In this document: positions 9,977-31,247 of the stretch, piece by piece
Numbering within the stretch: the stretch's first letter is position 1
How the letters are laid out: each line of letters opens with the position of its first letter
Source: Flavobacteriaceae bacterium
Lineage (GTDB): Bacteria > Bacteroidota > Bacteroidia > Flavobacteriales > Flavobacteriaceae
Reading direction: 5' to 3'
NCBI GenBank assembly: GCA_029934835.1
Contig: JAOZLL010000020.1
Span: 1 to 32,068, forward strand
Length of the DNA stretch: 32,068 nt
Notes under the pieces: model-generated
What the model was told of the DNA's origin: nothing
Database searches by the model: none
The model's input: only the letters and a program-made list of their open reading frames with translations
Translations under genes and position numbers: made by a program

Positions 9977-12900
9977 ATGAGTTTAAAAATTTATTACAAG
10001 AAAAGTATACTGACAATTGCCTTATTGTTGTCATCGTATATTATGTTTTCCCAAACGATTACAGGAAATGTCAAAGCAAGCGAAGATAATATGCCTTTGC
10101 CTGGTGTTTCAGTTATCGAAAAAGGAACAACAAATGGAACGGAAACCGATTTTGATGGCAATTTCTCCATTGATGTTAATGAAAATGCAACTATAGTTTT
10201 TTCATATATTGGCATGATAACAAAAGAAGTTGTGACAACAGGCAATACAATTAATATCTCACTTGATTATGACAGTAATACCCTAGACGAAGTTGTTGTT
10301 GTAGGATATGGTACATTAAAGAAGAGTGATTTAGTAAGTTCTGTTGCAAAAGTAGATTTAAAAAACGCCCTTGTTTCACCAACATCCGATATTAACGAAA
10401 TGTTAAGAGGTCATATCGCTGGTTTAAAAGTAGATGTTGGAAGTGGATCTTTAAGACCAGGAGGTACTTCAGATATTCAGTTTCGTGGTAGAGGCTCTGT
10501 AGAAGGAAATGTAAATGGTATCTACGTAGTTGATGGTGTTGTTAGAGAAGGTGGAATAGATGACATAAATCCTGATGATATTAAATCAATAGAATTCTTA
10601 AAAGATGCTTCGGCACAAGCAATTTATGGATCTAGAGCTGTTAATGGTGTTGTTTTAATTACTACTAAAAGAGGTAAAAGTGACAAAATACAAGTTTCTT
10701 ATCATGGTTATACCACATTAAAAGATGTTACGAAGAATTTTGATGTATATAGTGGTGAAGAATTTGCACAATTAAGACGTGAAGCCTATAGAACTGCTGA
10801 TGCTAATGATGCTTATCCAAATGATACTGATATTTTTTCAGACGTTGAAATGCAATCAATAACAGATGCTAATTTTGTTAACTGGGATAACGAGTTACTT
10901 CAATCAGGCTTTGTAAATAGTCAATCTGTTGGGATTTCTGGTGGTACAGATTTAACTAAAGTTTATGCTAGTTTAAACTACTTTAATGAAGATGGAATGG
11001 TCCCAACATCTAACTTTACTAAAAAAAGTTTACGATTAAATATAGATCAAAAAGTTTCAGATAAAGTTTCTGTAGCATTTGATGCAAATCTTGTTAACTC
11101 TGATCTCGATAGAGCTGCAAATGTAAATGTAATTACCATGTCACCACTTGGTAGAGCCTATGATAATGAAGGTAATATCATGAGATATCCTAGTGGAGAA
11201 GAATTATCTGCAACAAATCCTTTATGGAATTTAAATGAATCAAACCATGATATACAAGGAAATGATTTTGTCGTCACTGTTATTCCAAGAGTACAACTAA
11301 CAAAAGATTTAAAATATGAATTTAAAGGATCCTTTGCTAGAAAAAACTCACAAGGTGGCCAATATCTTTCCTCTTTTAGCTCTGCTGGTGATAGCGATAA
11401 TGGTATTGCTAGACTAGACAACAAACAAAGAGAATCCTTTTTGATAGAAAATATTTTATCTTATGATAAACAAATCAATGATAATAATGGCATTAATATA
11501 ACGCTAGTTCAAGCCATTGATGAAAATAAATATTCAAGAACTTTTTCAGAGGGAAAAGGTTTTACCAATGAAGAATTAGGCTATGATGGTATTGCTAATG
11601 CAATAAACAGCTATTCAATTGATAGAGATAAATTTAAAACAAGAACTGCATCTTTTATGGGTAGGCTTCGTTATAATTTAATGGATAAGTATTTAGTAAC
11701 AGGTACTTTTAGAGCAGATGGTGCCTCTGTTAATGCTAATGATCACAAATGGACCAACAATCCTGCAGCAGCTTTTGCTTGGAAAGTACACAATGAAAGT
11801 TTTTTACAAAATATTGATGCTATAGACGAATTAAAGTTTAGGGTAAGTTATGGTTCATTGGCAAATGCACTTAAAACACCTTATACATCATTGTTTACAG
11901 CAGATGGGCAACATTATGTTTTTGATGGGGAATCTACAACTGGTTATTCACCATCTGACGTCTTACCAAATCCAAATCTAAAACATGAGACAGTTACTAC
12001 ATTTAATGTAGGTCTTGATTTTAATATTTTTAAAAATCTTTTAAAAGGTAGTGTAGAGTATTACAATTCAAATACAAAAGATTTATTACTTAAAAAAGGA
12101 GTTCCTTCAACTACTGGTTATGATTTCACCTACTTTAATGCTGGTAAAGTTGTCAATAAGGGATTCGAATTAGGTTTAACTGCTAAACTTTTAAATAAAG
12201 AAGACTTTAAATGGTCTATTTCGACCTCTTTGTCAAACAATAAAAATGAACTTGTTGAATTGTATGATGATGCAAATGGAGATCCTGTTTTAGAAGATAA
12301 TACCTATCATTATTATGTTGGAAACGCCATAAGTACCATAAGACATTATCAATTTGATGGAATATGGCAAGAAGGTGATGATTTTGAAAATGCACCTCAA
12401 GCAAATCCAGAATCTACCAATACACAAGTTGATCTTAGACCTGGTGATATTAGAATTAAAGATACCAACGGAGTTGATGATGAGGGAAATCCAACAGGAA
12501 TACCTGATGGAATAATCACGGAAGAAGATATGATATTTACGGATAGAAACCCAGATTGGTTTGGTTCATTCTCATCAACTATCTCTTATAAAGGAGTTAG
12601 CTTATACGCTGACTTTTATACCGTACAAGGAGCTACAAAATATAATACAGTATTAGCAGACTACAACTCTGGTGGTGCTTTAAGAGGTGCTATTAATGGT
12701 GTAAAAGTACCTTACTATACTCCAGAAAATCCTTCAACCACTTTCCCAAGACCCAATTCTGATGGCTTGCTCTATTTAGAGTCATTGGCAATTCAAGATG
12801 CTTCTTATATAAGATTAAGAACTTTACGTTTAGGATATGAGTTACCTGAATCTCTTATGTCTAAAATAAAAATTGATCGAATTAGTTTGTATATAACTGG

Positions 12901-13033
12901 AACTAATCTATTTACCAAAACTGATTTCTTAGGTTATAGCCCAGAGGTGAGCATTAGACAAGCTTATTCAAGTGCTGATAGCGGTTACCCAGATTCAAGA
13001 GGCTTTTCATTCGGTTTAAAAGTTAAATTATAA
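9977..13033 (+). CDS. SusC-like TonB-dependent outer-membrane glycan importer
   Basis: The 1018-residue product has a signal peptide ending near 'MFSQ' (residue 26), an N-terminal carboxypeptidase-D-like domain (about 27-97; 'ITGNVKASEDNMPLPGVSV'), a TonB-box region 'DEVVVVGYG' at 104-112, a plug domain with the SusC signature 'LKDASAQAIYGSRAVNG' and a 22-strand-type barrel ending in 'FSFGLKVKL'. SusC proteins form a TonB-powered channel capped by a SusD lipoprotein and import oligosaccharides across the outer membrane. The SusD-like gene follows after 19 bases. The first gene of the operon usually carries the regulated promoter, which should lie in the 285-base gap upstream. Confidence 0.97.
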   Translation: MSLKIYYKKSILTIALLLSSYIMFSQTITGNVKASEDNMPLPGVSVIEKGTTNGTETDFDGNFSIDVNENATIVFSYIGMITKEVVTTGNTINISLDYDSNTLDEVVVVGYGTLKKSDLVSSVAKVDLKNALVSPTSDINEMLRGHIAGLKVDVGSGSLRPGGTSDIQFRGRGSVEGNVNGIYVVDGVVREGGIDDINPDDIKSIEFLKDASAQAIYGSRAVNGVVLITTKRGKSDKIQVSYHGYTTLKDVTKNFDVYSGEEFAQLRREAYRTADANDAYPNDTDIFSDVEMQSITDANFVNWDNELLQSGFVNSQSVGISGGTDLTKVYASLNYFNEDGMVPTSNFTKKSLRLNIDQKVSDKVSVAFDANLVNSDLDRAANVNVITMSPLGRAYDNEGNIMRYPSGEELSATNPLWNLNESNHDIQGNDFVVTVIPRVQLTKDLKYEFKGSFARKNSQGGQYLSSFSSAGDSDNGIARLDNKQRESFLIENILSYDKQINDNNGINITLVQAIDENKYSRTFSEGKGFTNEELGYDGIANAINSYSIDRDKFKTRTASFMGRLRYNLMDKYLVTGTFRADGASVNANDHKWTNNPAAAFAWKVHNESFLQNIDAIDELKFRVSYGSLANALKTPYTSLFTADGQHYVFDGESTTGYSPSDVLPNPNLKHETVTTFNVGLDFNIFKNLLKGSVEYYNSNTKDLLLKKGVPSTTGYDFTYFNAGKVVNKGFELGLTAKLLNKEDFKWSISTSLSNNKNELVELYDDANGDPVLEDNTYHYYVGNAISTIRHYQFDGIWQEGDDFENAPQANPESTNTQVDLRPGDIRIKDTNGVDDEGNPTGIPDGIITEEDMIFTDRNPDWFGSFSSTISYKGVSLYADFYTVQGATKYNTVLADYNSGGALRGAINGVKVPYYTPENPSTTFPRPNSDGLLYLESLAIQDASYIRLRTLRLGYELPESLMSKIKIDRISLYITGTNLFTKTDFLGYSPEVSIRQAYSSADSGYPDSRGFSFGLKVKL

Positions 13034-13052: not shown

Positions 13053-14681
13053 ATGAAAACATTTAAAACAATACTAAAAATAAGTATGGCTATGATGGCT
13101 GTGTTATTATTCTCTATATCTTGTACAGATTATTTAGAGGAGCAGCCAAGTACATCTATTGATGCTGGATATATATACAATACTGAAGATGGTTTACAAT
13201 CTGGAGTAGTCAGCTTATATAAATTTTATCGTCAAAAATATGAATATGGATCCCAAGATTTTATAGCAGCAAATTTTTTACAATCAAGAAATGATTTAAA
13301 TCTTAGTAGAACAGGTTATTTAGGTTTAGTAGGTCGCTATCAAAGAGCTATAAGCCCTACAGATTACGGAACTAAATTAATGTCTTATTATATATGGGAT
13401 CATCACTATAAAATTGCTAGTAAAGCTACAGAAATCATCAACGCAGCCGAGGCTCTAGATGATATTGATGAAGAAGCCAAAAATGAAATCATTGCACAAG
13501 CTAAGTTTTTTAGAGCGGAATCTTATTTTACATTATATAGAATTTTTAATAATATATATGTAACTACTGAATCTGTGACTGTTGATAATGCTTTTGATGT
13601 AGTTGAAGATAAGTCATCAGAAGTAGAAATATTTGAATTATTAAACAGTGATTTAAGCTTTGCTATTGAACATTTACAATGGACATCTGAATTTGGAAGA
13701 CTTACCAAAGGAACTGCAAAACACGTAAAAGCAAAAGTTGCCATGTGGCAAGGAGATTGGGCAATTGCAAGATTAGAAGCTGAGTCTTTAATATCAGAAG
13801 GGCCTCACAGTCTTGAGAGTAGTACTGCAGCTGTTTTTGATGGCAACATGAATAATTCTGAACAATTATTTGTAGTACAATATGAAGAAGACGTTGCCGG
13901 TGGTGGTGGAAAAAGTATGATTAGTGCAAATTACTTAGTAAAACATTGGTATGCAGATGCTAGTGATGGTAGTACTACAGATTTTACACAAGAATATGGT
14001 GGAGCTGGTTTTGCACGTTTATTACCAAATCATTATTTATTAGATCTTTTAGCCGAGGATCCTAATGATACTAGAGATGATAATACATACTTTAGACTAA
14101 AATACTATTTTGATGCAGGACCTCGTACAGGAGAAGTAAATGACACGTACACACCTATAACTTACGACCCAATAACCGACACCTATATCTACAGTTCAAC
14201 TTATATTAAATTTTTAGAACGATTAAATCCTTCTTGTTTAAAATTTGCTCCAGAAGATAATGACGAAACTAGCTATTGGCAGATTAATAATATTATGATT
14301 TATCGTCTAGCTGAAACCTATTTAATTGCAGCTGAAGCAAATATGCGTCTTAATGGTTCTGGTTTAGATTTCTTAAACGCAGTTAGAACTAGAGCAGGTG
14401 CCGCTCCAGCAACCCTAATTGATGAAACAGCAATACTAGACGAACGTGCACGTGAGTTAGCCTTTGAAGGACAACGTTGGTTTACTATGAAAAGAATGGG
14501 ACAATCAGTAATCAATCACCAAATGAGAACTTATTCTGGTGATGGGCAATTTGTACCAGCATATTACAATGGAGTAAAAGATCCAAGAGTAAACTGGCAA
14601 GACCATTATATAAACTTCCCAATTCCTCAAATCAATTTGGATTTGATGGGATCTAGCTATCCCCAAAATGATGGGTATTAG
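13053..14681 (+). CDS. SusD/RagB-like surface glycan-binding lipoprotein
   Basis: This 542-residue lipoprotein has signal peptide and lipobox 'SISC' (Cys24). The mature N terminus 'CTDYLEEQPST' is acidic, as expected for surface export. The body contains a SusD-like N-terminal tetratricopeptide region and the C-terminal RagB/SusD signature: 'YRLAETYLIAAEANMRL' near 415-430, 'LNAVRTRAGAA' and 'DERARELAFEGQRWFTMKRMG' near 468-488. It binds the glycan and forms the lid of the SusC channel. Its stop codon abuts the next gene directly (TAG then ATG), suggesting translational coupling. Confidence 0.97.
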   Translation: MKTFKTILKISMAMMAVLLFSISCTDYLEEQPSTSIDAGYIYNTEDGLQSGVVSLYKFYRQKYEYGSQDFIAANFLQSRNDLNLSRTGYLGLVGRYQRAISPTDYGTKLMSYYIWDHHYKIASKATEIINAAEALDDIDEEAKNEIIAQAKFFRAESYFTLYRIFNNIYVTTESVTVDNAFDVVEDKSSEVEIFELLNSDLSFAIEHLQWTSEFGRLTKGTAKHVKAKVAMWQGDWAIARLEAESLISEGPHSLESSTAAVFDGNMNNSEQLFVVQYEEDVAGGGGKSMISANYLVKHWYADASDGSTTDFTQEYGGAGFARLLPNHYLLDLLAEDPNDTRDDNTYFRLKYYFDAGPRTGEVNDTYTPITYDPITDTYIYSSTYIKFLERLNPSCLKFAPEDNDETSYWQINNIMIYRLAETYLIAAEANMRLNGSGLDFLNAVRTRAGAAPATLIDETAILDERARELAFEGQRWFTMKRMGQSVINHQMRTYSGDGQFVPAYYNGVKDPRVNWQDHYINFPIPQINLDLMGSSYPQNDGY

Positions 14682-15350
14682 ATGATAAGCAATATGAGAA
14701 ATTTTCATAATTTCATCCTTGTTTTCGTTATATTTATTGCTTACAATTCTTTTTCTCAAGAATATGTAAATCATTGGAAAAAAAATATTGATGCATTTAA
14801 TACACTTAATGGAGATTCCCCCTTACAAGGGGGAATCCTCTTTACAGGGAGCTCATCCATACGTTTTTGGGAAAATCCAGCAAAAGATTTTAATAATCTC
14901 CAAATAATTAATCGAGGTTTTGGTGGTTCACAACTAATTGATTTAATCGAAAACTTTGATCAAATTATTTTACAATATCAGCCAAAGAAAATAGTTATTT
15001 ACTCCGGTGATAATGATGTGCAAATTGGAAAATCGGCTGAACTAGTTTACGGTGACTTTTGTACACTTTTTGGTATGATAAGAGCCAAACTTCCCAATAC
15101 ACAAGTCTATTACATCGCCATTAAACCCAGTTTAAACCGTTGGGGAAAAGTATTAGAAATGAAAAAAGCCAATACTATGATTAATGAATACCTCAACAAA
15201 CAATCAAAGGGCTTTTTTATAGACATTTTCTCACCAATGATTGGTAAAAATGGAAAACCTTGCAAAAAGTGGTTTGTAGAAGATGAACTACATCTGTCAA
15301 AAAAAGGGTACAAACTCTGGACTGAAATTTTAGAACCATATATTAAGTAG
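14682..15350 (+). CDS. SGNH/GDSL-family hydrolase, probable carbohydrate esterase
   Basis: The 222-residue exported protein has a hydrophobic segment (about 11-22) ending 'NSFSQ', cleaved near residue 26, with no lipobox. SGNH motifs are visible: block I 'FTGSSSIRFW' with nucleophile Ser58 (GSS replacing GDS, common in this subfamily), block III 'SGDNDV' (109-113) and block V 'DELH' with Asp201 and His204. Members remove acetyl or other acyl groups from sugars. The ATG at 14682 touches the SusD stop codon; a second ATG at 14694 is an alternative start. It occupies the place where a SusE/SGBP-type binding protein often sits. A strong hairpin lies inside its coding sequence (14814-14837). The exact ester is unknown. 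Confidence 0.88.
   Translation: MISNMRNFHNFILVFVIFIAYNSFSQEYVNHWKKNIDAFNTLNGDSPLQGGILFTGSSSIRFWENPAKDFNNLQIINRGFGGSQLIDLIENFDQIILQYQPKKIVIYSGDNDVQIGKSAELVYGDFCTLFGMIRAKLPNTQVYYIAIKPSLNRWGKVLEMKKANTMINEYLNKQSKGFFIDIFSPMIGKNGKPCKKWFVEDELHLSKKGYKLWTEILEPYIK
14814..14837 (+). repeat. Strong GC-rich inverted repeat inside the first SGNH hydrolase gene
   Basis: Perfect 11-base arms (GATTCCCCCTT and AAGGGGGAATC) surround a 2-base centre; as RNA this would be a 9-base stem with a 6-base loop. Runs of five C and five G stand out in this AT-rich sequence. The repeat sits 132 bases into the gene that follows susCD and encodes 'DSPLQGGI', which fits the protein family, so it is compatible with function. 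Only a short T run follows (CTCTTT), so it is not a classical terminator. Confidence 0.6.
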
Positions 15351-15427: not shown

Positions 15428-16285
15428 ATGAAAACCTATTCATTTATATTTTCGCTTGTCATTTTACTATTTCTTTCTGCTTGTAAAAGTAAAAAGACAT
15501 ACCAATTAGTATGGTCAGATGAATTTGAAATATCAGGGAAACCAGATTCCACAAAATGGAGCTATGAATACGGATTTCTCAGAAATAACGAAGAGCAGTT
15601 TTATACAGATAACCCCAAAAATATAAGAGTTGAAAATGGCGCTTTAATAATAGAAACACATCTTGAAAAAATAATAAATCCAAAATTCAAGACTAATGAA
15701 TTTGATAAAAAACATTGGTTAAAATGGATTGCAAAAAGAGACTCCGCTAAATATACCTCAGCAAGTATTACAACAATAGATTTAGCAGAATGGACTTATG
15801 GTAAATTTGAAATAAAAGCAAAATTACCAACAGGTATTGGTTTATGGCCTGCAATATGGATGCTTGGTGAAAATAAAACAGTCGTTAACTGGCCTGAGTG
15901 TGGAGAAATTGATATTATGGAATATGTTGGTTACGAGAAAGATTCTATTTTTGGAACAATTCATACAAAAGCATATAACCACATGATTCATACACAAAAA
16001 GGGAAAAAAACTTTTATTAATAATCCAGATGTTATGTTTCACCTATTCGCTTTAGAATGGACCCCAGAAAAAATTGATTTTTTACTAGATGGAAAAATCT
16101 ATAATCATATTGAAAATGAGCACAAAACTACAGATGAATGGCCATTTGATCAAAATTTTCATTTAAAATTAAATGTAGCCGTTGGAGGTGCACTTGGTGG
16201 TAAAAAAGGAATCGATGACACTGTTTTTCCAAAACAAATGATCATTGATTATATAAGAGTTTATCAAAAAAAAGTAAATAATTGA
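15428..16285 (+). CDS. GH16 endo-beta-1,3-glucanase (laminarinase-like) lipoprotein
   Basis: The 285-residue lipoprotein has lipobox 'LSAC' (Cys19) followed by one GH16 catalytic domain (about 25-282). The signature 'GEIDIMEYVG' gives nucleophile Glu160, Asp162 and acid/base Glu165. 'GLWPAIWMLG' (138-147), 'FGTIHT' and the final strand 'MIIDYIRVYQKK' also fit laminarinase-type GH16. The family cleaves beta-1,3-glucan internally by a retaining mechanism. The residues after Cys19 are 'KSKK', not acidic, so it lacks an obvious surface-export signal and may act in the periplasm. It is flanked by the two longest gaps in the operon. Licheninase or galactanase activity is less likely in this context. 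Confidence 0.93.
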   Translation: MKTYSFIFSLVILLFLSACKSKKTYQLVWSDEFEISGKPDSTKWSYEYGFLRNNEEQFYTDNPKNIRVENGALIIETHLEKIINPKFKTNEFDKKHWLKWIAKRDSAKYTSASITTIDLAEWTYGKFEIKAKLPTGIGLWPAIWMLGENKTVVNWPECGEIDIMEYVGYEKDSIFGTIHTKAYNHMIHTQKGKKTFINNPDVMFHLFALEWTPEKIDFLLDGKIYNHIENEHKTTDEWPFDQNFHLKLNVAVGGALGGKKGIDDTVFPKQMIIDYIRVYQKKVNN

Positions 16286-16405: not shown

Positions 16406-17245
16406 ATGAATAGAATAGGATTTTTAATAATAATTTTACTGATAGTAAGTTGTAATAGACAACCAAAAGAACTAAACCTCTCTGTTATGACCTATAACAT
16501 TAGATATGGCTTAGCTGATGATGGAGAAAATTCTTGGAAATTTAGAAAAGATAATATTGTTAATTTAATCAATTTTTATGAGCCAAATATATTCGGAACA
16601 CAAGAGGGATTGCCTTTTCAAGTAAATTACATAACTGAAAAATTACCTCATTACAAATATATAGGAGCTGATAGAGATGGAAATGGAAGAGGAGAAAATA
16701 CAGCCATTTTCTATGACATAAATAAATTTAATGTAATAGAACACAATACTTTTTGGCTTGCTCCAGATCAGAACAAACCTTCAAAAGCTTGGGATGCTGC
16801 ATATCCAAGAATTTATACCTATGGACTTTTTGAAGATAAAATGACTCAAAAGAAGTTTTGGATCATTAATTCACATTTTGATCATGTTGGTGCAAAAGCA
16901 AGGGTAAATAGTGCAAAAATTATTCTAGAGAAAATCAAAGAGATTAATACAGAAAATCATTTGTTAATTTTCATGGGAGATTTAAATGCAGAGATCAATG
17001 CTCCCGAAATAAATAGTCTAAAAAAACAATTAACTGATACAAAAGAACTAAGTGTAAAAAAACCATTTGGACCCATTGGTACTTTTAATAATTTTGAGTT
17101 TAAGAAACCAGTGACCATACTTATAGATTACATATTTGTTAATAATAGAACTATAAAAATAAATAAACACGCCGTATTAAGTGATTCTGAGAACTTAAAA
17201 TACCCATCAGATCATTTCCCCGTGTATATAGAATTGACATACTAA
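16406..17245 (+). CDS. Endonuclease/exonuclease/phosphatase (EEP) family lipoprotein
   Basis: The 279-residue lipoprotein has lipobox 'IVSC' (Cys16). EEP-fold motifs are complete: 'MTYNIRYG' (metal-site Asn31), 'TQEG' (Glu67), 'NSHFDHVG' (His157), 'GDLNAE' (Asp192, Asn194), Asp241 in 'LIDYIF' and 'SDHFPV' (Asp269, His270). The superfamily hydrolyses phosphodiesters or phosphomonoesters with Mg2+ (nucleases, sphingomyelinases, inositol phosphatases). Being exported and inside a glycan locus it is unlikely to be a DNA-repair nuclease. I infer action on a phosphate-linked substituent of the glycan or on a co-occurring lipid or nucleic acid. It follows the GH16 gene by 120 bases and precedes GH30 by 17. 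Confidence 0.88.
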   Translation: MNRIGFLIIILLIVSCNRQPKELNLSVMTYNIRYGLADDGENSWKFRKDNIVNLINFYEPNIFGTQEGLPFQVNYITEKLPHYKYIGADRDGNGRGENTAIFYDINKFNVIEHNTFWLAPDQNKPSKAWDAAYPRIYTYGLFEDKMTQKKFWIINSHFDHVGAKARVNSAKIILEKIKEINTENHLLIFMGDLNAEINAPEINSLKKQLTDTKELSVKKPFGPIGTFNNFEFKKPVTILIDYIFVNNRTIKINKHAVLSDSENLKYPSDHFPVYIELTY

Positions 17246-21652: not shown

Positions 21653-24600
21653 ATGATTGATAAAGCTATATATATAGGTAATAATAAAGCTATTTCTAAA
21701 GAAAAAGTTGTAGTAGGAGAATTTGTGACAATAGATAATGAATCGTATTACAAAATAGAAAATAGTGATACTCTCAGACCTTTCTTTATGAGTATTGTAA
21801 GCAATTCAAATCATTGGATGTTTATCTCAAGTAATGGAGGATTATCAGCAGGTAGAAAAGATAGTGATATGGTTCTTTTCCCCTATTATACTGATGATAA
21901 AATTACAGAGTCAAAAGAGGTTACAGGTAATAAAACAATATTTCAAATACATATTGATGGCAAAATCTATTTGTGGGAACCTTTTAGCGATAGGTATAAA
22001 GGTATTTATGACACTACTATAAATTTGTACAAGAATAGCTTTGGCAACAAAATTATCTTTGAAGAAATAAATAATACTTTAGGTTTAACTTTTAGATACC
22101 AATGGAGTTCAAGTGAACAATATGGATTTATAAAAAAATCAACTTTAATAAATAACACAAACTCTCTTTTACGAGTGACTGTTCTGGATGGAATTCAAAA
22201 TATAATACCTTATGGTGTATCTTCAAATTTACAAAACTCACGTAGTAATTTAGTAGATGCGTATAAAAAGAGTGAATTAGAAACCGAAGTAGGACTAGGT
22301 ATTTATGCTTTAAGTGCCATAATAGTTGATAAACCAGAACCTAGCGAAGCACTAAAAGCTACGATCGCTTGGTCTGCTGGTCTCGAAAATCCTATTCATT
22401 TATTATCCTCATTACAACTTGACAATTTTAGAAAAGGAAAACCCATTCAAGAGGAAACTAATGTTAGAGCAGAAAAAGGAGCTTATTTTATAAGCACTGA
22501 CTTAAAACTTCAATCTAAAACTGAAAAAAATTGGATGATTGTCGCAAATGTAAATCAATCCATCACTTCTATTGTCAAAATTTCAACACAAATAAAAAAT
22601 GATACCAAGCTTTTTAAAACAATTCAAAAAGACATAGAAATTGGAACACAAAATTTATTAAAATTTATCACAGCTTCTGATGGATTACAATTAACAGCTG
22701 ATAAACTACTAAATAACAGACATCTTTCCAATACACTGTTCAATATTATGCGTGGTGGTATTTTTGATACTAACTATCAAATTGAAAAAGACGATTTTAT
22801 TAAATATATTGCTACTTCAAATAAAAAAGTTCTAAAGAATAAAAAAGTTTTTATAGCACAAATTCCACAAGTATTTTCAATTCAATTCTTAAAAGAATTA
22901 GCGATACAAGATAATGACAGCAACTTTATAAGGCTCTGTTTTGAATATTTACCACTAAAATTTAGCAGAAGACATGGTGACCCAAGTAGACCATGGAACA
23001 AATTTTCGATCAATACTAAAAACGAAATTAATGGAAAAAAAATATTAGATTATGAAGGCAATTGGAGAGACATATTTCAAAACTGGGAAGCATTAGCGCA
23101 ATCCTATCCTGAATTTATTGAAAGTATGATTCATAAATTTTTAAATGCAACTACTTTTGATGGCTACAACCCTTACCGAGTCATGAAAAATGGCTTTGAT
23201 TGGGAAGTTGAAAAAGCTAATGATCCATGGTCGTTTATAGGATATTGGGGAGATCATCAACTAATATATCTACTTAAGTTCCTAGAGTTTATTGAAAACT
23301 ATTATCCAAATAGATTATCCGATTTTAGTAATCATGAAATATTTGTTTACGCTAATGTGCCTTATAAAATAAAGTCCTATGCTGATATAGTAAAAAACCC
23401 AAAAGATACTATTGAATTTGATACAAAATTACATGATAGTATTACTCAAGAAAAGACAAAACTAGGGACTGATGCTGCACTACTTAAAGATTGTAATAAT
23501 TCAATATATAAAGTCAATTTAATAGAAAAATTACTAGTAACAGTATTGGTAAAAATTTCAAATTTTATTCCTGAAGCTGGAATTTGGATGAACACGCAAA
23601 GACCCGAATGGAATGATGCGAATAATGCATTAGTTGGCAATGGAGTTTCTATGGTTACTTTATATTATTTAAAAAGATTTTTAAATTTCTTTGAAAAACT
23701 AGGTAGCACAATTGCTGATGATGGAGTAATGATTTCCAAAGAGTTAGCACTGTTTTTCAAAGAAACTGTCACTGTTTTTGAAAAATATCAATATATATTA
23801 TCAAACAAAATATCTGATAAAGACCGAAAAAAAGTTCTTGATGGTCTTGGTTTTGCGGGTAGCAAATATAGAACTACTATTTATGAAAATAGATTTTCAA
23901 ACAAAAAGGTAAAACTAACCAAAAAAGACCTCAAAGACTTTTTTGAGATTTCTAAAAAATTTATTAGCCATACTATTGATACAAGTAAACGCTCAGATAA
24001 GTTGTATCATTCTTATAATTTAATGAGCATTAAAAATAATTCTGAAGTTTTAATTTCTAATTTACCAGAAATGTTAGAAGGTCAAATAGCTATTTTAAGT
24101 GCTAATTATTTATCCGCTAAATCGTCTTTAGAATTATTAGATAGTTTAAAAAATAGTGCCTTGTTTAGATCTGATCAATATAGCTATTTATTATATCCAA
24201 ACAAAGAACTGAAAAGATTTAGTAACAAGAATACTATTCCTTTTAAGCAAATAAAAGAATCCGCATTATTAATACAACTTTTAGAAGATGGGAATTCGCA
24301 AATCATTGAAAAAGATATTTTAGGAAACTATCATTTTAATGGAAATTTCAACAATGCTAATAGCTTAAAAGAAGCACTAAAGAATATATCCAAAGAGAAC
24401 TATCAATCTTTAGTAAAAAAGGATACAAAATTAATATTAGAAATTTTTGAAAAGATTTTTGATCATAAATCATTTACGGGTAGATCAGGAACTTTTTTTG
24501 GCTATGAAGGATTAGGTTCAATTTACTGGCATATGATTTCCAAACTATTGTTAGCGGTACAAGAAATCTGTATAAAAGCAATCGATAATAATGAAAACAA

Positions 24601-25123
24601 GGTTTTAATAGGTAAATTACTAGATCATTATTATGAGATTAACGAAGGAATAGGTGTTCATAAATCACCCGAATTATACGGAGCGTTTCCAACCGATCCA
24701 TATTCTCACACACCATTGAGCAAAGGTGCGCAACAGCCTGGTATGACAGGTCAAGTTAAAGAAGATATTTTAAGCAGATTTGGGGAATTAGGAATTGTTG
24801 TTAAAGATACTCAACTCCAATTTAAACCTAGTTTATTGAAAAGAAAGGAATTTCTTAAAAAACAAAAAGTATTCAAATATAGTGATGTAAATGATGTAAT
24901 TAAAGAGATAGTCTTAGAAAAAAATTCACTTTGTTTTACCTATTGTCAAGTGCCTATAATTTATCAATTGAACACTGAAGAAAATTTGCTTATTACCTTT
25001 AGTAACGGAAAAACTGAAAAAATTGAAACTTTATGTCTAGATAAAAAAACAAGCCAACAGATTTTTGGAAGACAAGGCACAGTATCTCAAATTACAATTT
25101 CAGTAAAAAGCATATTGAAATGA
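21653..25123 (+). CDS. GH149-like beta-1,3-glucan phosphorylase
   Basis: The very large (1156-residue) protein has no signal peptide, so it is cytoplasmic. The N-terminal half looks like the beta-sandwich of GH94-type phosphorylases ('FFMSIVSNSNHWMFISSNGG' near 42-61, 'GGLSAGRKDSDMVLFPYYTDD', and a 'YRQ'-like strand region near 145-185). A helical (alpha/alpha)6-type region follows, with 'RPEWNDANNALVGNG', where Asp655 occupies the place of the catalytic Asp of the GH94-related families. The C-terminal 'QQPGMTGQVKEDILSRFGELGI' also fits. Such enzymes cleave beta-1,3-gluco-oligosaccharides with phosphate to give glucose 1-phosphate. Length and genomic context favour GH149; GH161 and an uncharacterised relative are alternatives. 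It overlaps the GH3 start by 4 bases (ATGA). Confidence 0.68.
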   Translation: MIDKAIYIGNNKAISKEKVVVGEFVTIDNESYYKIENSDTLRPFFMSIVSNSNHWMFISSNGGLSAGRKDSDMVLFPYYTDDKITESKEVTGNKTIFQIHIDGKIYLWEPFSDRYKGIYDTTINLYKNSFGNKIIFEEINNTLGLTFRYQWSSSEQYGFIKKSTLINNTNSLLRVTVLDGIQNIIPYGVSSNLQNSRSNLVDAYKKSELETEVGLGIYALSAIIVDKPEPSEALKATIAWSAGLENPIHLLSSLQLDNFRKGKPIQEETNVRAEKGAYFISTDLKLQSKTEKNWMIVANVNQSITSIVKISTQIKNDTKLFKTIQKDIEIGTQNLLKFITASDGLQLTADKLLNNRHLSNTLFNIMRGGIFDTNYQIEKDDFIKYIATSNKKVLKNKKVFIAQIPQVFSIQFLKELAIQDNDSNFIRLCFEYLPLKFSRRHGDPSRPWNKFSINTKNEINGKKILDYEGNWRDIFQNWEALAQSYPEFIESMIHKFLNATTFDGYNPYRVMKNGFDWEVEKANDPWSFIGYWGDHQLIYLLKFLEFIENYYPNRLSDFSNHEIFVYANVPYKIKSYADIVKNPKDTIEFDTKLHDSITQEKTKLGTDAALLKDCNNSIYKVNLIEKLLVTVLVKISNFIPEAGIWMNTQRPEWNDANNALVGNGVSMVTLYYLKRFLNFFEKLGSTIADDGVMISKELALFFKETVTVFEKYQYILSNKISDKDRKKVLDGLGFAGSKYRTTIYENRFSNKKVKLTKKDLKDFFEISKKFISHTIDTSKRSDKLYHSYNLMSIKNNSEVLISNLPEMLEGQIAILSANYLSAKSSLELLDSLKNSALFRSDQYSYLLYPNKELKRFSNKNTIPFKQIKESALLIQLLEDGNSQIIEKDILGNYHFNGNFNNANSLKEALKNISKENYQSLVKKDTKLILEIFEKIFDHKSFTGRSGTFFGYEGLGSIYWHMISKLLLAVQEICIKAIDNNENKVLIGKLLDHYYEINEGIGVHKSPELYGAFPTDPYSHTPLSKGAQQPGMTGQVKEDILSRFGELGIVVKDTQLQFKPSLLKRKEFLKKQKVFKYSDVNDVIKEIVLEKNSLCFTYCQVPIIYQLNTEENLLITFSNGKTEKIETLCLDKKTSQQIFGRQGTVSQITISVKSILK

Positions 25124-27417
25124 AAAGAATAGTATACATATATATTATTTCAGTATTTATATTGAGTTGTACAACAAAAGAACAACCTAGAATAACCCAT
25201 ATAAATAGTAGTAGTCTAGAAACTGTAGAAACAGAAAAAAAAATTAAAAGCTTGTTAGCTCAAATGACACTCAAAGAAAAAGCAGGACAAATGCTAAACA
25301 TTGGTTTACCTGCTATGCTAAAAGGTAATTATTGGGATAAAAAAAGTAGTTATAGTTTTGACACAACAAAATTTAAAAAGTTTATTATTGATTATGCAGT
25401 AGGATCTATCCATAATAAACCTCGCATTCCTGTTTCTAAAGAAGAATGGTATCAGATAATAAAAAAAATACAAGATTCAGCAATGAGTAACACACGTCTT
25501 GGAATTCCTGTGTTGTATGGAATCGACAATATTCATGGAGCAAATTATGTAACTGGATCTGTACTATTTCCACACCAAATCGCTATAGCTGCAACATGGA
25601 ATACCGAGCTTTCTTATTTAGCTAGCAACATTACATCTTATGAATCAAGAGCAGCATCACTTCCTTGGAATTTTAATCCAAATGCAGATATAGCAATGAA
25701 TCCCCTTTGGGGACGAATTGCAGAGAGTTTTGGCGAAGATCCCTATCTAATTTCAGAGATGACTAACGCCTATATAAAAGGATCTCAAGCAAAAGGATTA
25801 AATGATTCAACAAGTACGGCCGTCTGTTTAAAACATTTTATCGGCTATGGTGCAGGAAAAAACGGAAAAGACAGAGCCAACGCATTGATTCCAGAAAATA
25901 ACCTTCGTCAGTATTTTCTACCTCCTTTTGAAAAAGCTATTAAAAACGGAGCAATGAGCGTTATGATTAGTTCAAATGCTGTAAACGGAATTCCTTGCCA
26001 TATCAATAAGCATTATATTACTGATATTCTTAAAGGAGAATTTAATTTTAAAGGCGTTGTAATTTCAGATTTTAGTGATGTAGATTTTTTGGTTGATTCA
26101 CATCTTTCTGCAAAAGATAAAAGAGAAGCTACTAAAATGGCGGTAAATGCAGGTTTAGATTTAATTATGAATCCTTTTGATGTAGACGTGGCAGATTATA
26201 TCGTTGATTTAGTAGAAAAAAATGAAATTCCAATGAGTAGAATTGATGATGCCGTTACGAGAATTCTACGACTCAAATTTTATTTAAACCTATTTGAAAC
26301 TCCTTACAACAAGCCTGAGAATTATATAGATTTTGGAAGTAAAAAACATATTGATGCCAACTATAAAACAGCAAGTGAAGCCATAACATTATTAAAAAAC
26401 AAAAATAACATATTGCCACTATCACCTTCTAAAAGAGTATTACTTACAGGTTATTCTGCTAATTCTATTAATCTATTAAATGGAGCATGGTCAAGATCTT
26501 TTCTAGGAAGAGATACACTATATAATGACCCAACAAAACTGACAATTTTAGATGCCATAACAGCCCAAATTGGAACGAATAATATTGAATTTCTAAAAGG
26601 AACAGATTATTTAGAAGATATTAATTCAAATGAAGTCCTAAAAGCAGCTAAAAACACAGATTGTATAGTTGTTTGTGTAGGAGAAATACCTGCTACTGAA
26701 AAATCATCTGATATTAACGAATTAGAGCTCACAACAGTACAACAAGAATTAGTAAAAAAACTCTCAAAAAGCAACAAACCAATCATATTGGTCATGGTAC
26801 AAGGAAGACCAAGGATTATTCGAGAAATTGAGCCCTTGGTTGATGCAATTATCATGGCTTACCTACCAGGACAAGAAGGAGGTCGTGCAATTTCAGATGT
26901 GTTATTTGGCAAAGTTAATCCAAGTGGTAAATTACCCTATACCTACCCAAAATACTCAGGAAATATCTTGCCTTATTTTCATAAAAAAGCAGATATTAGA
27001 GATAAAAAATGGGGTTTTGATGGGTTTTTTCCTCAATTTGAATTTGGTTTTGGTTTATCATTTACTAATTTTGAATATACAAATTTGAGACTTAGCAAGG
27101 ATACCTTAAAAATGGGTGAAAACCTTAAGATCTTCGTAGATGTAAAAAATACAGGTGATCGTGAAGGTAAAGAAATTGTAGAAATGTATAGTAGCGACCT
27201 AGTTTCAACGCGTACTCCAGATCTAAAAAAATTGATAGGTTTCACCAAAATAAATCTAAAACCTGATGAATTAAAAACTGTTAGTTTTAGTATTAACTCA
27301 AAAGATTTAGCTAGCATAGGTATTGCTAATAATTGGGTAACTGAGGAAGGTGAGTTTGAAATTCAAATTGGTGGAAACCCACAAAAATTATTAAAATCAA
27401 TATTTTATTATAAATAA
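25120..27417 (+). CDS. GH3 beta-glucosidase lipoprotein
   Basis: The 765-residue lipoprotein has lipobox 'ILSC' (Cys17). Domains in order: (beta/alpha)8 barrel (about 40-385) with 'KHF' (238-240) and nucleophile Asp317 in 'VVISDFSDV'; (alpha/beta)6 sandwich (about 420-640) with probable acid/base Glu527 in 'GEIPATEKSSD'; C-terminal fibronectin-III-like domain (about 660-755). The nucleophile motif reads SDF where SDW is usual. It should release glucose from the non-reducing ends of beta-gluco-oligosaccharides in the periplasm. The start codon overlaps the preceding stop (ATGA), indicating coupling to the phosphorylase. Linkage preference (beta-1,3 versus beta-1,6) is not evident. Confidence 0.95.
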   Translation: MKRIVYIYIISVFILSCTTKEQPRITHINSSSLETVETEKKIKSLLAQMTLKEKAGQMLNIGLPAMLKGNYWDKKSSYSFDTTKFKKFIIDYAVGSIHNKPRIPVSKEEWYQIIKKIQDSAMSNTRLGIPVLYGIDNIHGANYVTGSVLFPHQIAIAATWNTELSYLASNITSYESRAASLPWNFNPNADIAMNPLWGRIAESFGEDPYLISEMTNAYIKGSQAKGLNDSTSTAVCLKHFIGYGAGKNGKDRANALIPENNLRQYFLPPFEKAIKNGAMSVMISSNAVNGIPCHINKHYITDILKGEFNFKGVVISDFSDVDFLVDSHLSAKDKREATKMAVNAGLDLIMNPFDVDVADYIVDLVEKNEIPMSRIDDAVTRILRLKFYLNLFETPYNKPENYIDFGSKKHIDANYKTASEAITLLKNKNNILPLSPSKRVLLTGYSANSINLLNGAWSRSFLGRDTLYNDPTKLTILDAITAQIGTNNIEFLKGTDYLEDINSNEVLKAAKNTDCIVVCVGEIPATEKSSDINELELTTVQQELVKKLSKSNKPIILVMVQGRPRIIREIEPLVDAIIMAYLPGQEGGRAISDVLFGKVNPSGKLPYTYPKYSGNILPYFHKKADIRDKKWGFDGFFPQFEFGFGLSFTNFEYTNLRLSKDTLKMGENLKIFVDVKNTGDREGKEIVEMYSSDLVSTRTPDLKKLIGFTKINLKPDELKTVSFSINSKDLASIGIANNWVTEEGEFEIQIGGNPQKLLKSIFYYK

Positions 27418-27433: not shown

Positions 27434-28216
27434 ATGAATTTATTCTTTAAGCATATCGTTATAGGCCTTTTTCTAAGTAGCCTTATTTCTTGTGTAAATA
27501 CACAAACTTATGTAATTGCACACAGAGGATATTCAGACAAAGCTCCAGAAAATACACTTGCTGCTTTTCAAAAAGCCATTGATATTGGTGCAGATTATTA
27601 TGAGTTAGATGTTCATAAAACGAAAGATAATAAATTAGTTGTAATTCATGACAAGTCTGTAGATAGAACCTGTTCTAATAATAAAACAGGAAAAATAACG
27701 GAGCTTAATTTTACCGATCTACAAGATATTAGAGTGGGCTTTTCTGAAAAATTTGGTGAAACATATCAAAATGAAAAAATTCCTACATTAAAAGAATCGC
27801 TTGAATTAGCAAAGGGCAAAATAAAAGTTTGTATCGAAATAAAAGTAAAAGACATAGAAAAACAAGTTGTCCAATTAGTTGAAGAGCTAGCCATGGTTAA
27901 CGAGGTAATTATCTTTTCTTTTAACTATGAAACCGTTAAAAATACTAAGATTTTAAACCCTAAACTCCAAACTCTTTTATTAATTGATAATGCCAATTTA
28001 CAAACCATAGACAAAGTTAAGGCAATAAATGCAAATGCTATTGGTGTTGGGTACAATACTAAAATCACAGAACAATTGGTAACTTATGCACATCAAAACA
28101 ATATTAAAGTTTTTAAATGGACTGTCAATAAAGAGAAAGAGATGATAGAACTCATCAATTTTAAGTTAGATGGTTTAATAACCAATAAACCAGATTTACT
28201 ACTTAAACTTAAGTAA
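27434..28216 (+). CDS. Glycerophosphodiester phosphodiesterase (GDPD) lipoprotein
   Basis: The 260-residue lipoprotein has lipobox 'LISC' (Cys20) and a complete GDPD TIM barrel: 'AHRGYSDKAPENT' with catalytic His30 and Glu39, 'ELDVHKTKDNKLVVIHD' with metal ligands Glu57 and Asp59 and catalytic His72, then 'IPTLKESL', 'VCIEIK' and the terminal 'LDGLITNKPD'. The family hydrolyses glycerophosphodiesters such as glycerophosphocholine to glycerol 3-phosphate and an alcohol. It is of normal length and all catalytic residues are present. It lies between GH3 (16 bases) and the HAD phosphatase (19 bases). Its presence in a glucan locus suggests that the glycan carries glycerophosphate-like groups, or that membrane phospholipid head groups are harvested with it. 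Confidence 0.93.
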   Translation: MNLFFKHIVIGLFLSSLISCVNTQTYVIAHRGYSDKAPENTLAAFQKAIDIGADYYELDVHKTKDNKLVVIHDKSVDRTCSNNKTGKITELNFTDLQDIRVGFSEKFGETYQNEKIPTLKESLELAKGKIKVCIEIKVKDIEKQVVQLVEELAMVNEVIIFSFNYETVKNTKILNPKLQTLLLIDNANLQTIDKVKAINANAIGVGYNTKITEQLVTYAHQNNIKVFKWTVNKEKEMIELINFKLDGLITNKPDLLLKLK

Positions 28217-28235: not shown

Positions 28236-29135
28236 ATGAAAAAAATATTTTTATTACTAGTCGTTTTTCAATTATTCATCTCCTGTAAAGAAAATACATA
28301 CAAGAATGATTTTACTAAAATTGATGGTTTTTCGCAATCAGCCAATCAACAATTACAACTATTTTTTGAAAAATATAAGACTACAGAAGGAAGGAAAATA
28401 GCTGTTTTTGATGGTGACGGTACAGTAATGGGGCAAACACCACATTACCTTGCTGATGAATGTATGTATCAATATGCTAGAGAAAATCCAGAATGGAATC
28501 AAGAAGTTATTGACACAATAACACAACTTTCAAATGTTTCACTGCCTTATGTTCAATATAGAGTAAAATATATATCTGGTAAGTCACTACAATTTTATCG
28601 TGATTTAGGAGAAATAACCTTTAACAAGTATTATAAGGATAAAATCTTTCAACCTGTAAAACAACTAATTTCAATTTTAAAAGAAAATGATTTTGAAGTT
28701 TGGATAGTAACAGCATCACCAGAAGGAATGTATCAGCAATTTTTAAGCAAAGAGTTTGGCATACCAATAACAAATATTATAGGAGTAAAATCAGTTATCA
28801 GAAATGGAATTATAACAGATAAAATGGTGCATCCTGTACCACAAGATGAAGGAAAAATGGAAGCTATTGAAACTTTTATACAAGGCAAACCCTTGTTAGT
28901 GGCTGGAAATAGTAGAGGAGATAAAGAAATGATTGAATTTAGTGGAGATCTAAAAATGATTGTTAATCCCGATGAACATATAGCTAAAGGTCAGCAGCAA
29001 AGTATTTCTGATTATGCAAAGAAAGAAAACTGGTTAATAGTTAAAATTAATGATACTCCAAGAAATAATTTCCCGTCAATTTCATCTGAAAATTTTGGAA
29101 TTAGATTAAACAAAACAAGAGAAATATTGAATTAA
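28236..29135 (+). CDS. HAD-superfamily phosphatase lipoprotein
   Basis: The 299-residue lipoprotein has lipobox 'FISC' (Cys17). HAD motifs: motif I 'VFDGDGTVMG' (nucleophile Asp59, acid/base Asp61), motif II 'VTASPEG' (Thr159, Ser161), and motif III/IV with 'GNSRGDKEMI' (224-233, Asp229). A helical cap lies between motifs I and II, as in phosphoserine phosphatase-like (type C1) enzymes. Relatives include phosphoserine, phosphocholine and phosphoethanolamine phosphatases. Export and position after the GDPD gene suggest that it removes phosphate from the small product of that enzyme or directly from the glycan. The substrate is not determined by sequence. Confidence 0.9.
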   Translation: MKKIFLLLVVFQLFISCKENTYKNDFTKIDGFSQSANQQLQLFFEKYKTTEGRKIAVFDGDGTVMGQTPHYLADECMYQYARENPEWNQEVIDTITQLSNVSLPYVQYRVKYISGKSLQFYRDLGEITFNKYYKDKIFQPVKQLISILKENDFEVWIVTASPEGMYQQFLSKEFGIPITNIIGVKSVIRNGIITDKMVHPVPQDEGKMEAIETFIQGKPLLVAGNSRGDKEMIEFSGDLKMIVNPDEHIAKGQQQSISDYAKKENWLIVKINDTPRNNFPSISSENFGIRLNKTREILN

Positions 29136-29154: not shown

Positions 29155-29787
29155 ATGAAAAGATTTTTTTTCTTATTTATTTTCGTACTATTATTTCTTA
29201 TCTCTTGTTCTCCAATTAAAGTAGCCTGTGTTGGTGACAGCATAACCTATGGTTCAAGTATTAAATATAGAGATTCACTCTCTTATCCTGCACAATTACA
29301 ACGATTATTAGGTGACAAATATATGGTAGGTAACTTTGGTCATAGCGGAGCAACAATGCTAAAAAAGGGAAACAAACCGTATTGGAGCTTACCAGAATTT
29401 GAAAAAAGCAAAGTATTTAATGCCGATGTTGTTATAATTATGCTTGGTACAAATGACACAAAACCAGTCAATTGGAGTTTAAAAACAGATTACATTCCTA
29501 ATTATAAAGAGCTTATAAAGGTTTATCAAAATCAAAAAAATCACCCTAAAGTTATACTTTGTTTACCACCACCAGTTTTTGAAAATAAATGGACAATCCA
29601 GCAAGAAGTTGTTAAAAATGAAGTTATTCCATCAATATTACAGCTGACAAAAGAGCAAGATTTAACCTATTTTGATATGTATGCTCTACTTATCGATCAT
29701 CCTGAATTTCTTACAGATAAAGTGCATCCAAATAAAAATGGTGCAGCAGAAATAGCTAAACTAATTGCTAAAAAACTAACAGAATAA
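29155..29787 (+). CDS. SGNH/GDSL-family hydrolase lipoprotein
   Basis: The 210-residue lipoprotein has lipobox 'LISC' (Cys18). All SGNH blocks are present: 'CVGDSITYG' with nucleophile Ser29, 'NFGHSGAT' (Gly62), 'MLGTND' (Asn100) and 'DKVHPN' with Asp188 and His191. Unlike the first SGNH protein of the locus it keeps the classical GDS motif and is only about 20 percent similar by eye, so the two are not recent duplicates. It resembles GDSL esterases linked to sialate or acetyl-xylan esterase groups. A role in de-esterifying the glycan is inferred. It lies 19 bases after the HAD gene and 11 before the second MFS gene. Confidence 0.92.
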   Translation: MKRFFFLFIFVLLFLISCSPIKVACVGDSITYGSSIKYRDSLSYPAQLQRLLGDKYMVGNFGHSGATMLKKGNKPYWSLPEFEKSKVFNADVVIIMLGTNDTKPVNWSLKTDYIPNYKELIKVYQNQKNHPKVILCLPPPVFENKWTIQQEVVKNEVIPSILQLTKEQDLTYFDMYALLIDHPEFLTDKVHPNKNGAAEIAKLIAKKLTE

Positions 29788-29798
29788 ATCATTCTATT

Positions 29799-31247
29799 AT
29801 GAGAAATCTTTCAAATAAAAAAATCAATATATATTTTATTACTATTGTAATTACACTTGGAGGACTTCTTTTTGGATATGATACAGGAGTTATAAATGGA
29901 ACCCAATTCTACTTTTCAAAATACTTTGAATTAACAGGTTTTTGGAAAGGATTTGTCGTAAGTAGTGCATTAATAGCTGCTTTTTTTGGTGCATTAATTT
30001 CTGGTGTTTTAAGTAAAAAGATTGGAAGAAAGAATTCTTTGATTATTGCAGCAGTTTTATTTTCTATTTCTGCTTGGGGATCAGGTTTGCCAAATATGTT
30101 GCCCGAATCAATTTCATTAATGGTTTTCTTTAGAATTTTAGGAGGTGTAGCAATAGGTATTGCATCAATGAATGCACCTATGTATATTGCTGAAATCGCA
30201 CCAGCAGAGAAAAGAGGGAATTTGGTAACTTTCTATCAATTGGCAATTGTAATAGGATTTTTTGTCGTTTTCTTAGCTACATATTCTATTGGAAACAGAT
30301 TAAGCGAAGCAGAAAATATTCAGTTTGGATGGAGACAAATGTTTTGGACAGAACTTATTCCCTCATTATTATTTTTTATAGGATTATTTTTTGTTCCCAA
30401 AAGCCCACGTTGGTTAATGACAAAAGGAAGAGAAGAAGAAGCCTTAAATATCTTAACTCGAATTCATGGAGAGAAAACTGCCAATAAAGAAATTATCGAA
30501 ATTAGAAATTCTATTCAAAGTGAAAATGCAAAAGATAAAATTTCTCTTTTTGTAAAACCATTACTTGCAATTGTTGTAATTGGTACAGTCTTATCAGCAC
30601 TTCAGCAGTTTACGGGTATTAATGCCGTATTGTATTATGGTGCTGATATTTTTGAACAAGCCTTAGGCTTTGGGAAAGATGATATTTTAAAACAACAAGT
30701 CTTACTCGCTACAGTCAATCTGGTTTTTACATTTATCGCCATGTTTACAGTTGACAAACTCGGTAGAAAACCTTTATTAACAATTGGTGGTTTTGGAATG
30801 CTAATAGGCTTTTTAATTATGGGATATACTTTATATACAAGTGATTATTCTAATAGTAATGCAGCAGGTTTACCAGCATTGTCAGCGACTGAAGGAGTTG
30901 TTAGTTTAGTAGGAATTCTAATTTTTATAGCGTCTTTTGCCATGTCAATGGGTCCAGTTGTATGGGTGATATTGTCTGAAATATTTCCAAATAGAGTTAG
31001 AAGTATTGCCATGTCCATTGCGGTGGCAGCACAATGGTTGGCCAATTATTTTGTTTCGTTCACTTTCCCATTGATTGTTGAAAGTGATGCAAATAAATTG
31101 CAAATGCATGGAGGCACATGGAATAATTCTTTACCCTACTTTATATTCTCTGCTTTTATTGTAATTATTATTGTATTTGTTTGGAAATTTATCCCTGAAA
31201 CAAAAGGTAAAACATTAGAAGAAATGGAAACACTTTTTGAAAAGTAA
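29799..31247 (+). CDS. Sugar-porter family MFS transporter (second copy)
   Basis: The 482-residue inner-membrane protein has twelve predicted helices and the same family marks as the first MFS: 'GGLLFGYDTGVINGT', 'GVLSKKIGRKN', 'PMYIAEIAPAEKRG', 'QQFTGINAVLYYGADIFEQ', 'DKLGRKPLL' and 'PETKGKTLEEMETLF'. The loop before helix 10 is short (about 20 residues). It differs clearly from the first MFS and may carry a different substrate, for example glucose versus an oligosaccharide, or the alcohol released by side-chain hydrolases. It is the last gene of the locus; 213 bases without another recognisable gene follow. No clear terminator hairpin is seen after it. Confidence 0.95.
   Translation: MRNLSNKKINIYFITIVITLGGLLFGYDTGVINGTQFYFSKYFELTGFWKGFVVSSALIAAFFGALISGVLSKKIGRKNSLIIAAVLFSISAWGSGLPNMLPESISLMVFFRILGGVAIGIASMNAPMYIAEIAPAEKRGNLVTFYQLAIVIGFFVVFLATYSIGNRLSEAENIQFGWRQMFWTELIPSLLFFIGLFFVPKSPRWLMTKGREEEALNILTRIHGEKTANKEIIEIRNSIQSENAKDKISLFVKPLLAIVVIGTVLSALQQFTGINAVLYYGADIFEQALGFGKDDILKQQVLLATVNLVFTFIAMFTVDKLGRKPLLTIGGFGMLIGFLIMGYTLYTSDYSNSNAAGLPALSATEGVVSLVGILIFIASFAMSMGPVVWVILSEIFPNRVRSIAMSIAVAAQWLANYFVSFTFPLIVESDANKLQMHGGTWNNSLPYFIFSAFIVIIIVFVWKFIPETKGKTLEEMETLFEK

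Follow-up and report, generated by a model that had tools for sequence, protein, structure and literature searches.

One flavobacterial polysaccharide utilization locus (PUL) for laminarin unites GH16, GH30, GH149, and a transporter of the major facilitator superfamily (MFS) (PMC13188888), and the GH149 genes of Bacteroidetes map to PULs (PMC5827456). A second system for comparison is the beta-1,6-glucan PUL of Bacteroides, BT3309-BT3314, which has SusCD and two enzymes only, GH30_3 and GH3, and whose description does not use the word "phosphatase" in its accessible text (PMC5481569). Here we analyzed a contig of 32,068 nucleotides from a Flavobacteriaceae genome (GCA_029934835.1, contig JAOZLL010000020.1), hereafter called the window, in which 14 genes form a locus that shares GH16, GH30, GH149, and MFS with the flavobacterial PULs and SusCD, GH30, and GH3 with that of Bacteroides, although its GH30 scores below the cut-off of the BT3312 model. 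Compared with the flavobacterial GH149 laminarin PULs, as far as the available text of the two papers describes them, the window adds five phosphoester/acyl hydrolases: an EEP-family protein, a predicted glycerophosphodiester phosphodiesterase (GDPD), a HAD phosphatase, and two SGNH hydrolases (SGNH1 and SGNH2). We read the locus, with a probability of roughly 0.55, as a laminarin-type beta-1,3/1,6-glucan PUL that recruited an exported module for the removal of phosphoester (glycerophosphodiester and phosphomonoester) and acyl groups.

Parts of this module recur in beta-glucan loci and other parts in glycerol-phosphate loci. A phosphoester/acyl function appears plausible from the sequence comparisons, because the linkage of EEP to GH30, a GDPD-GH16 fusion in genome G181, and a set of genes in genome G133 show that the extra enzymes are not random passengers. 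The phosphate groups would most likely arrive with the beta-glucan food source, either as substituents or as co-released material. The words "phosphatase" and "phosphodiesterase" do not occur in the available main text of two papers on marine PULs (PMC6794258, PMC13188888), and the open-licence literature yielded no paper directly on the idea of a locus for phospho-decorated beta-glucan.

Core glucan genes

The core of the locus is an ordinary beta-glucan set. Searches against Pfam, NCBIfam, and PDB placed the genes named by an initial annotation of this DNA on the plus strand, in one tight row that includes the five exported extras, and bore out its view of the glycosidases (GH16, GH30, GH158-like, GH3) and GH149 as a beta-1,3/1,6-glucan set (Table 1). 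The SusC/SusD pair and the linked carbohydrate-active enzyme genes on the same strand give the locus the makeup of a PUL. The GH149 product reaches 1761 bits with NF058639, whose curated equivalog cut-off is 1150, and has no Pfam match. In Pfam, the GH158-like gene gives a weak GH2 barrel only, while the solved GH158 enzyme 9oro matches nearly its full length, residues 31 to 435 of the query. The subfamily of GH30 is unsettled: its sequence scores higher with 2wnw (277 bits) and human glucosylceramidase (237 bits) than with 5ngk (197 bits), and reaches 266 bits with the NCBIfam model for the BT3312 endo-1,6-beta-glucanase (GH30_3), whose cut-off is 700, which makes exo and endo roles equally likely.

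Accessory enzymes in beta-glucan loci

Relatives of EEP were present in 171 of the 397 genomes of the family in our draw. GH30 was searched in 80 of these 171, mostly those with the top EEP scores, plus G204 and G032, and the window type (>600 bits) was found in 25 of the 80, the source genome apart. In at least five of these 25 relatives (G317, G127, G371, G375, and G181, among the best EEP places listed) EEP lies within 3 kb of the window-type GH30. About 0.1 such cases would be expected within 6 kb and the chance estimate is 2e-7, in a rough Poisson calculation that takes one or two EEP copies per 3.7-Mb genome and ignores shared ancestry.

The clearest arrangement is that of G181, where a lipoprotein of 518 amino acids (L203:12956-14509) that fuses GDPD and GH16 (Pfam, 88.8 and 75.2 bits) stands directly before EEP. 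The gene order there is GDPD-GH16, EEP, GH30, GH30, MFS, GH158, and GH3, GH149 being encoded on the opposite strand, and the fusion retains the HRG, PEN, E-D, and HD residues of GDPD. In G047 (C12), near the contig start, a GDPD match falls in a frame of 554 amino acids that adjoins EEP and may be another GDPD fusion; the GH30 of this genome, near the start of another contig, is the closest found (74%). GDPD is therefore beside EEP in two of the six genomes G317, G127, G371, G375, G181, and G047; in G317 and G127 the GDPDs are far away, in G375 they are on another contig, and in G371 none is shown. The PDB entries 7wwc and 7ww4 have the same domain architecture as the G181 fusion and join in a single chain the GDPD and GH16 classes of the window locus, but in fused form and with another GDPD subtype. 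According to the available text of PMC12448869, this is a glucanase crystallized with laminarin and without an accompanying publication, named inconsistently as a Pedobacter terrae glucanase with laminarin and as a Bacillus circulans xylanase. The molecule name of both entries ("beta-1,3(4)-glucanase") mentions the glucanase alone.

The window GDPD scores far beyond its Pfam cut-off of 23.6 bits (Table 1) and retains HRG, PENT, ELD, and HD in the alignment, which we take to be the HRG, PEN, ExD, and HD motif residues of the family. A TIM-barrel domain of this fold adapted to beta-glucan, with no phosphodiesterase activity, would be suggested by the GDPD-GH16 fusions and by the Q that 7wwc has in place of the E found in the PEN motif of others, but it is improbable, given the Pfam score and the motifs kept by both the window GDPD and the G181 fusion. 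Elsewhere in the source genome, an open frame of 624 amino acids contains another GDPD-like stretch (G000:C7:38244-38684); as far as could be seen it is not joined to GH16, because the window gene was the sole GH16 match in that genome.

When the G181 fusion was used to search plasmids, no record covered 80% of it. A Mesorhizobium plasmid match with 75% coverage was rejected as a GDPD-GH16 fusion, as it consists of GH16 and RTX repeats without GDPD.

The HAD phosphatase and its neighborhood

The model of the HAD protein is best matched by 4ovy, whose function is not stated (Z 23.5), followed by phosphorylcholine phosphatase 4as2 (Z 22.1, root mean square deviation 2.9, 235 residues aligned) and by 3fvv and 4gxt, both of unknown function (Z 20.7 and 20.3), while phosphoserine phosphatases reach at most 15.6. 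The closest characterized fold is that of phosphorylcholine phosphatase. The Pseudomonas aeruginosa enzyme (PchP, 4as2), in the available text of PMC3170909, is likewise an exported HAD with a DxDxT motif, but identity to the window protein, a lipoprotein, is 22%, and the PchP choline-site residues E42, E43, and YYY82-84 are not mappable onto it. We collected 12 full-length orthologs, 10 from named metagenome-assembled genomes (MAGs; six Bacteroidales and one each titled KSB1, Deltaproteobacteria, Leptospiraceae, and Ignavibacteriales) and two from family genomes, leaving out four weak partial matches (L195-L198) and HADs of about 30% identity (L207-L211 were examined). Across the 12 aligned sequences, the HAD motifs DxDGT and GNSRGD are invariant, as are D74 and E75, at most candidate counterparts of residues in the PchP choline site.

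These orthologs are frequently close to genes of glycerol-phosphate metabolism. A GDPD is found within 10 kb in four of the 12 loci and within 16 kb in five, the fifth being that of G133, 14.5 kb from HAD; the chance estimate is 5e-7, from the same kind of Poisson calculation, blind to shared ancestry. Within the stretches examined, a GlpT-type MFS occurs in four loci (421-440 bits, below the curated glpT cut-off of 633), GlpD in three, GlpK together with GlpF in one (an FGGY kinase in L189, with 35 bits to GlpK, was left out of this count), and a relative of SGNH1 in two (L194 and L199). In total, seven of the 12 loci have GDPD, GlpT, GlpD, or GlpK, and four of the other five come from contigs only 3-11 kb long. 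None of these queries had a match in 120 GH149 loci of the family. GH149 is also carried by three of the 12 genomes, elsewhere in the genome. The richest set is that of G133 (C5:26205-42247, L200), with GDPD, EEP, GH3, GH31, two SGNH, GlpD, GlpK, GlpF, and HAD in 16 kb, the portion before 31.9 kb being known by match positions alone. Neighborhood points to glycerol phosphate as the substrate of HAD and the modeled fold to phosphocholine, and either would fit the breakdown of glycerophosphodiesters. Pure chance proximity of the five extras to the glucan genes was ruled out, as both the EEP-GH30 and the GDPD-HAD linkages exceed the rough Poisson expectation, with the same disregard of shared ancestry.

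In the G336 locus (L199:8803-19900), SusC, a calcineurin-like metallophosphoesterase, GH97, GDPD, and HAD follow one another in a row, with a divergent SGNH and GlpD beside them; judging by these genes, this PUL is a candidate for the use of a glycan that contains phosphoglycerol. Directly before HAD, three of the 12 loci code for a short exported-looking protein (L189:9087-9944, L191:9147-10001, and L194:9099-9983); that of L194, the one searched, has no Pfam match.

GH149 loci across the family

Several results weigh against a recruited module, most of them from the comparison of GH149 loci. GH149 was found in 137 of the 397 genomes (140 matches), with no match in the two genomes of the draw from the same genus. 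We examined 120 of the 140, in stretches no longer than 20 kb with GH149 flanks of at most 8.3 kb (seven stretches are shorter than 19.9 kb), leaving out that of the source genome and 19 others, mostly truncated or from short contigs (G124, G235, G147, G047, G331, G066, G221, G165, G218, G037, G167, G264, G170, G057, G062, G082 twice, G161, and G278-C8), of which G047 was later informative for the GDPD match beside its EEP. Relatives of GH16 were present in 104 of the 120 loci and of GH30 in 99, and the window-type core (GH30 >600 bits, MFS >300, GH158 >400) in six. None of the 120 contained a relative of EEP, GDPD, HAD, SGNH1, or SGNH2 within these flanks, even at an E value of 0.01, and the fused-type GDPD of G181 as query also gave nothing. 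With flanks extended, G204 (L120, L201, and L202), one of the six with the window-type core, has the complete core of regulator, SusCD, GH16, GH30, MFS, GH158, GH149, and GH3, and the five extras are absent from it. Beta-glucan loci therefore manage without them, and the notion that the five belong to the usual GH149 locus of this family was rejected. The initial annotation would count a core without phosphoesterases in most relatives against its proposal, and within these stretches the core does occur without them, yet EEP is linked to GH30 in at least five of 25 relatives and GDPD, in G047 as a frame match, is beside EEP in two. As the EEP and GDPD-GH16 genes of G181 lie just beyond its 20-kb stretch, the zero count holds for the stretches examined. 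A GDPD search of 80 genomes at an E value of 1e-15, 78 of which belong to the 137 that have GH149, showed by eye no GDPD in any relative less than 20 kb from GH149, a weak negative because this threshold missed the G181 fusion (7.6e-15).

Other points against this reading concern the extras themselves. Among the EEP places listed, 19 of the 25 relatives show no EEP-GH30 linkage, and G047 counts neither way. The GDPD subtype of the G181 fusion and 7wwc differs from that of the window, and the recurrence is therefore one of activity class rather than of orthologs; by these sequences, beta-glucan loci seem to have gained the activity on more than one occasion. HAD is rare, with more than 200 bits in three of the 397 family genomes (the remaining 55 with matches are weak, at most 56 bits) and, at 1e-40, in one of 395 genomes of the class, namely the source genome. 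Its nearest relatives, 72-80% identical, are in Bacteroidales MAGs (L185-L188) and have no GDPD beside them, their contigs being 3-11 kb long. The identity of 80% and the rarity in its own family suggest that HAD was acquired by horizontal transfer between orders; plasmid matches to it were all under 60% identity. The module of G133 is apart from the GH149 locus of that genome, and the source genome (88% complete) yielded no match to glycerol kinase. The two gene blocks singled out by the initial annotation were recovered in part: GH16-EEP-GH30 as the EEP-GH30 linkage and the GDPD-GH16 gene ahead of EEP in G181, and the gene types of GH3-GDPD-HAD-SGNH within the G133 set, where they stand with glycerol genes and GH31.

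Proposed pathway and alternatives

In the pathway that we propose, the steps supported by homology would be the uptake of beta-glucan by SusC/SusD, the cleavage of beta-1,3 bonds by GH16 and GH158, the processing of beta-1,6 links and ends by GH30 and GH3, and MFS import followed by cytoplasmic phosphorolysis by GH149. The extras may prepare the substrate: the SGNH enzymes would take off acyl groups, GDPD would convert glycerophosphodiesters to glycerol-3-phosphate and the freed alcohol or glucan, and HAD and EEP could dephosphorylate small phosphomonoesters (glycerol phosphate, phosphocholine, phosphoethanolamine) and any sugar phosphate, after which the trimmed glucan would enter the ordinary pathway.

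One branch of this reading, possible though tentative, is a dedicated system for beta-1,3/1,6-glucans that carry phospho and acyl substituents, for instance glucans of bacterial origin, in which GDPD (alone or fused to GH16), EEP, and the PchP-like HAD would strip phosphoglycerol or phosphocholine before breakdown by the glycosidases and GH149. The GDPD-GH16 fusion, which would be the signature of such a system elsewhere in Bacteroidota, the EEP-GH30 linkage, and the PchP-like HAD are consistent with it. The premise of the initial annotation that substituted beta-glucans exist is found in print, within the available text of two papers: cyclic beta glucans bear 1-phosphoglycerol, a reference title in the same paper (PMC4881576) names, for Bradyrhizobium, a beta-(1,3);(1,6) glucan substituted with phosphocholine, and the osmoregulated periplasmic glucans of Escherichia coli carry phosphoglycerol, succinate, and phosphoethanolamine (PMC10514313). 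Against it, none of the 12 HAD loci is a GH149 locus. Of the proposed adaptation to a decorated glucan, the phosphoester/acyl function stands as plausible, while attachment of the groups to the glucan and a bacterial origin would be conjecture. If the phosphoesterases do act on the glucan, laminarin-centered accounts of beta-glucan turnover would lack one food source, a beta-glucan decorated with phosphate.

The other branch, likewise short of probable, is that the glucan is undecorated and the module serves to recover glycerol and phosphate out of the phospholipid head groups of the lysed cells that provide it. This would agree with the HAD orthologs beside GDPD, GlpT, and GlpD (plus GlpK and GlpF in one locus), with the SGNH1-like lipases that accompany HAD in L194 and L199, with the resemblance of SGNH1 to lysophospholipase L1, and with the PchP-like fold. 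The GDPD-GH16 fusions of G181 and 7wwc are difficult to reconcile with lipid salvage, however, and besides the GlpK not found in the source genome no scanned window gene is GlpT, GlpD, or GlpK.

We regard as rather unlikely that the 3' genes GDPD-HAD-SGNH2-MFS2 form a cassette that hitchhikes on the locus and serves some other phosphoglycerol polymer or glycoside, for example one resembling teichoic acid. The G336 row and the G133 set with GH31 and GlpD/GlpK/GlpF would fit such a cassette, as would the transfer suggested by the identity of HAD to a Bacteroidales protein, but the four genes continue the glucan gene row at gaps of 11-19 bp, and other beta-glucan loci also have EEP and a GDPD. 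For a recruited phosphoester/acyl module, the recurring GDPD/GH16/EEP/GH30 arrangement offers a concrete search marker and enzymes for assay, and the HAD neighborhoods tie an uncharacterized family of HAD lipoproteins to glycerophosphodiester metabolism in several phyla.

Gene row and layout

The window is one contig (C105) of a fragmented genome of 2.47 Mb. Its 14 genes follow the order SusC-SusD-SGNH1-GH16-EEP-GH30-MFS1-GH158-GH149-GH3-GDPD-HAD-SGNH2-MFS2, with intergenic gaps of -4 to +120 bp from SusC to MFS2. Promoter-like and terminator-like sites between 13000 and 32000 are in no excess over shuffled sequence (96 versus 104 and 7 versus 6.9), so the row is not divided by them. For GDPD, HAD, SGNH2, and MFS2, codon distances and GC content (0.29-0.32) are inside the range of the other genes, and the idea that an anomalous composition marks a recent insertion was rejected.

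Table 1. Genes of the beta-glucan locus and its probable regulator, with their main supporting matches.
Product	Position	Strand	Support
Regulator (probable) with propeller/Y_Y_Y sensor part	6923-9691	+	Pfam Reg_prop 21.2 bits (cut-off 20.4); Y_Y_Y 26.2 (just under 26.6)
SusC-like TonB-dependent transporter	9977-13033	+	Pfam
SusD-like lipoprotein	13053-14681	+	Pfam; lipobox SISC
SGNH1, lysophospholipase L1/O-acetylesterase-like, exported (predicted)	14682-15350	+	Pfam Lipase_GDSL_2; PDB 6njc E 1.4e-15
GH16 laminarinase-like lipoprotein	15428-16285	+	Pfam; PDB laminarinase 3iln E 3e-69; 7wwc 224 bits
EEP-family lipoprotein, sugar-phosphatase-like	16406-17245	+	Pfam Exo_endo_phos; PDB 3mpr E 6.4e-44; 4c1r "mannosyl-6-phosphatase" E 1.6e-43
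GH30, putative beta-1,6-active glucosidase or glucanase	17263-18756	+	Pfam
MFS sugar porter 1	18790-20304	+	Pfam; NCBIfam TIGR00879 373 bits (cut-off 238)
GH158-like beta-1,3-glucanase, lipoprotein by eye	20314-21627	+	PDB 9oro "GH158(Pro)" E 1.5e-84; 6pal
GH149 beta-1,3-glucan phosphorylase, no export signal	21653-25123	+	NCBIfam NF058639; PDB 6hq6 1547 bits
GH3 beta-glucosidase lipoprotein	25120-27417	+	Pfam; BglX-like 437 bits (below cut-off 666); lipobox
GDPD lipoprotein, glycerophosphodiester phosphodiesterase (predicted)	27434-28216	+	Pfam 158 bits; PDB 2pz0 E 3e-39
HAD phosphatase lipoprotein, phosphorylcholine-phosphatase-like fold	28236-29135	+	Pfam HAD; model pLDDT 87
SGNH2 lipoprotein, related to C-terminal part of acetylxylan esterase AxeA1	29155-29787	+	Pfam; NF042968 183 bits (below cut-off 700)
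MFS sugar porter 2, XylE-like	29799-31247	+	Pfam; NCBIfam

A pattern scan found the lipobox in SusD, GH16, EEP, GH3, GDPD, HAD, and SGNH2; GH30 and GH158 gave no match, yet look lipoprotein-like by eye. Export of the five extras is predicted because EEP, GDPD, HAD, and SGNH2 have the lipobox pattern and SGNH1 has a Sec-type signal by eye. The SGNH1 translation contains GSSS, GDND, and DELH, presumably the motifs of the SGNH family. The window EEP has a relative in the PDB entry 4c1r, but belongs to a beta-glucan locus instead. Upstream of SusC, the product of 6923-9691 is the probable regulator of the locus by its domains, and its relatives, at 871-970 bits, are near GH149 cores in L124, L203, and L205.

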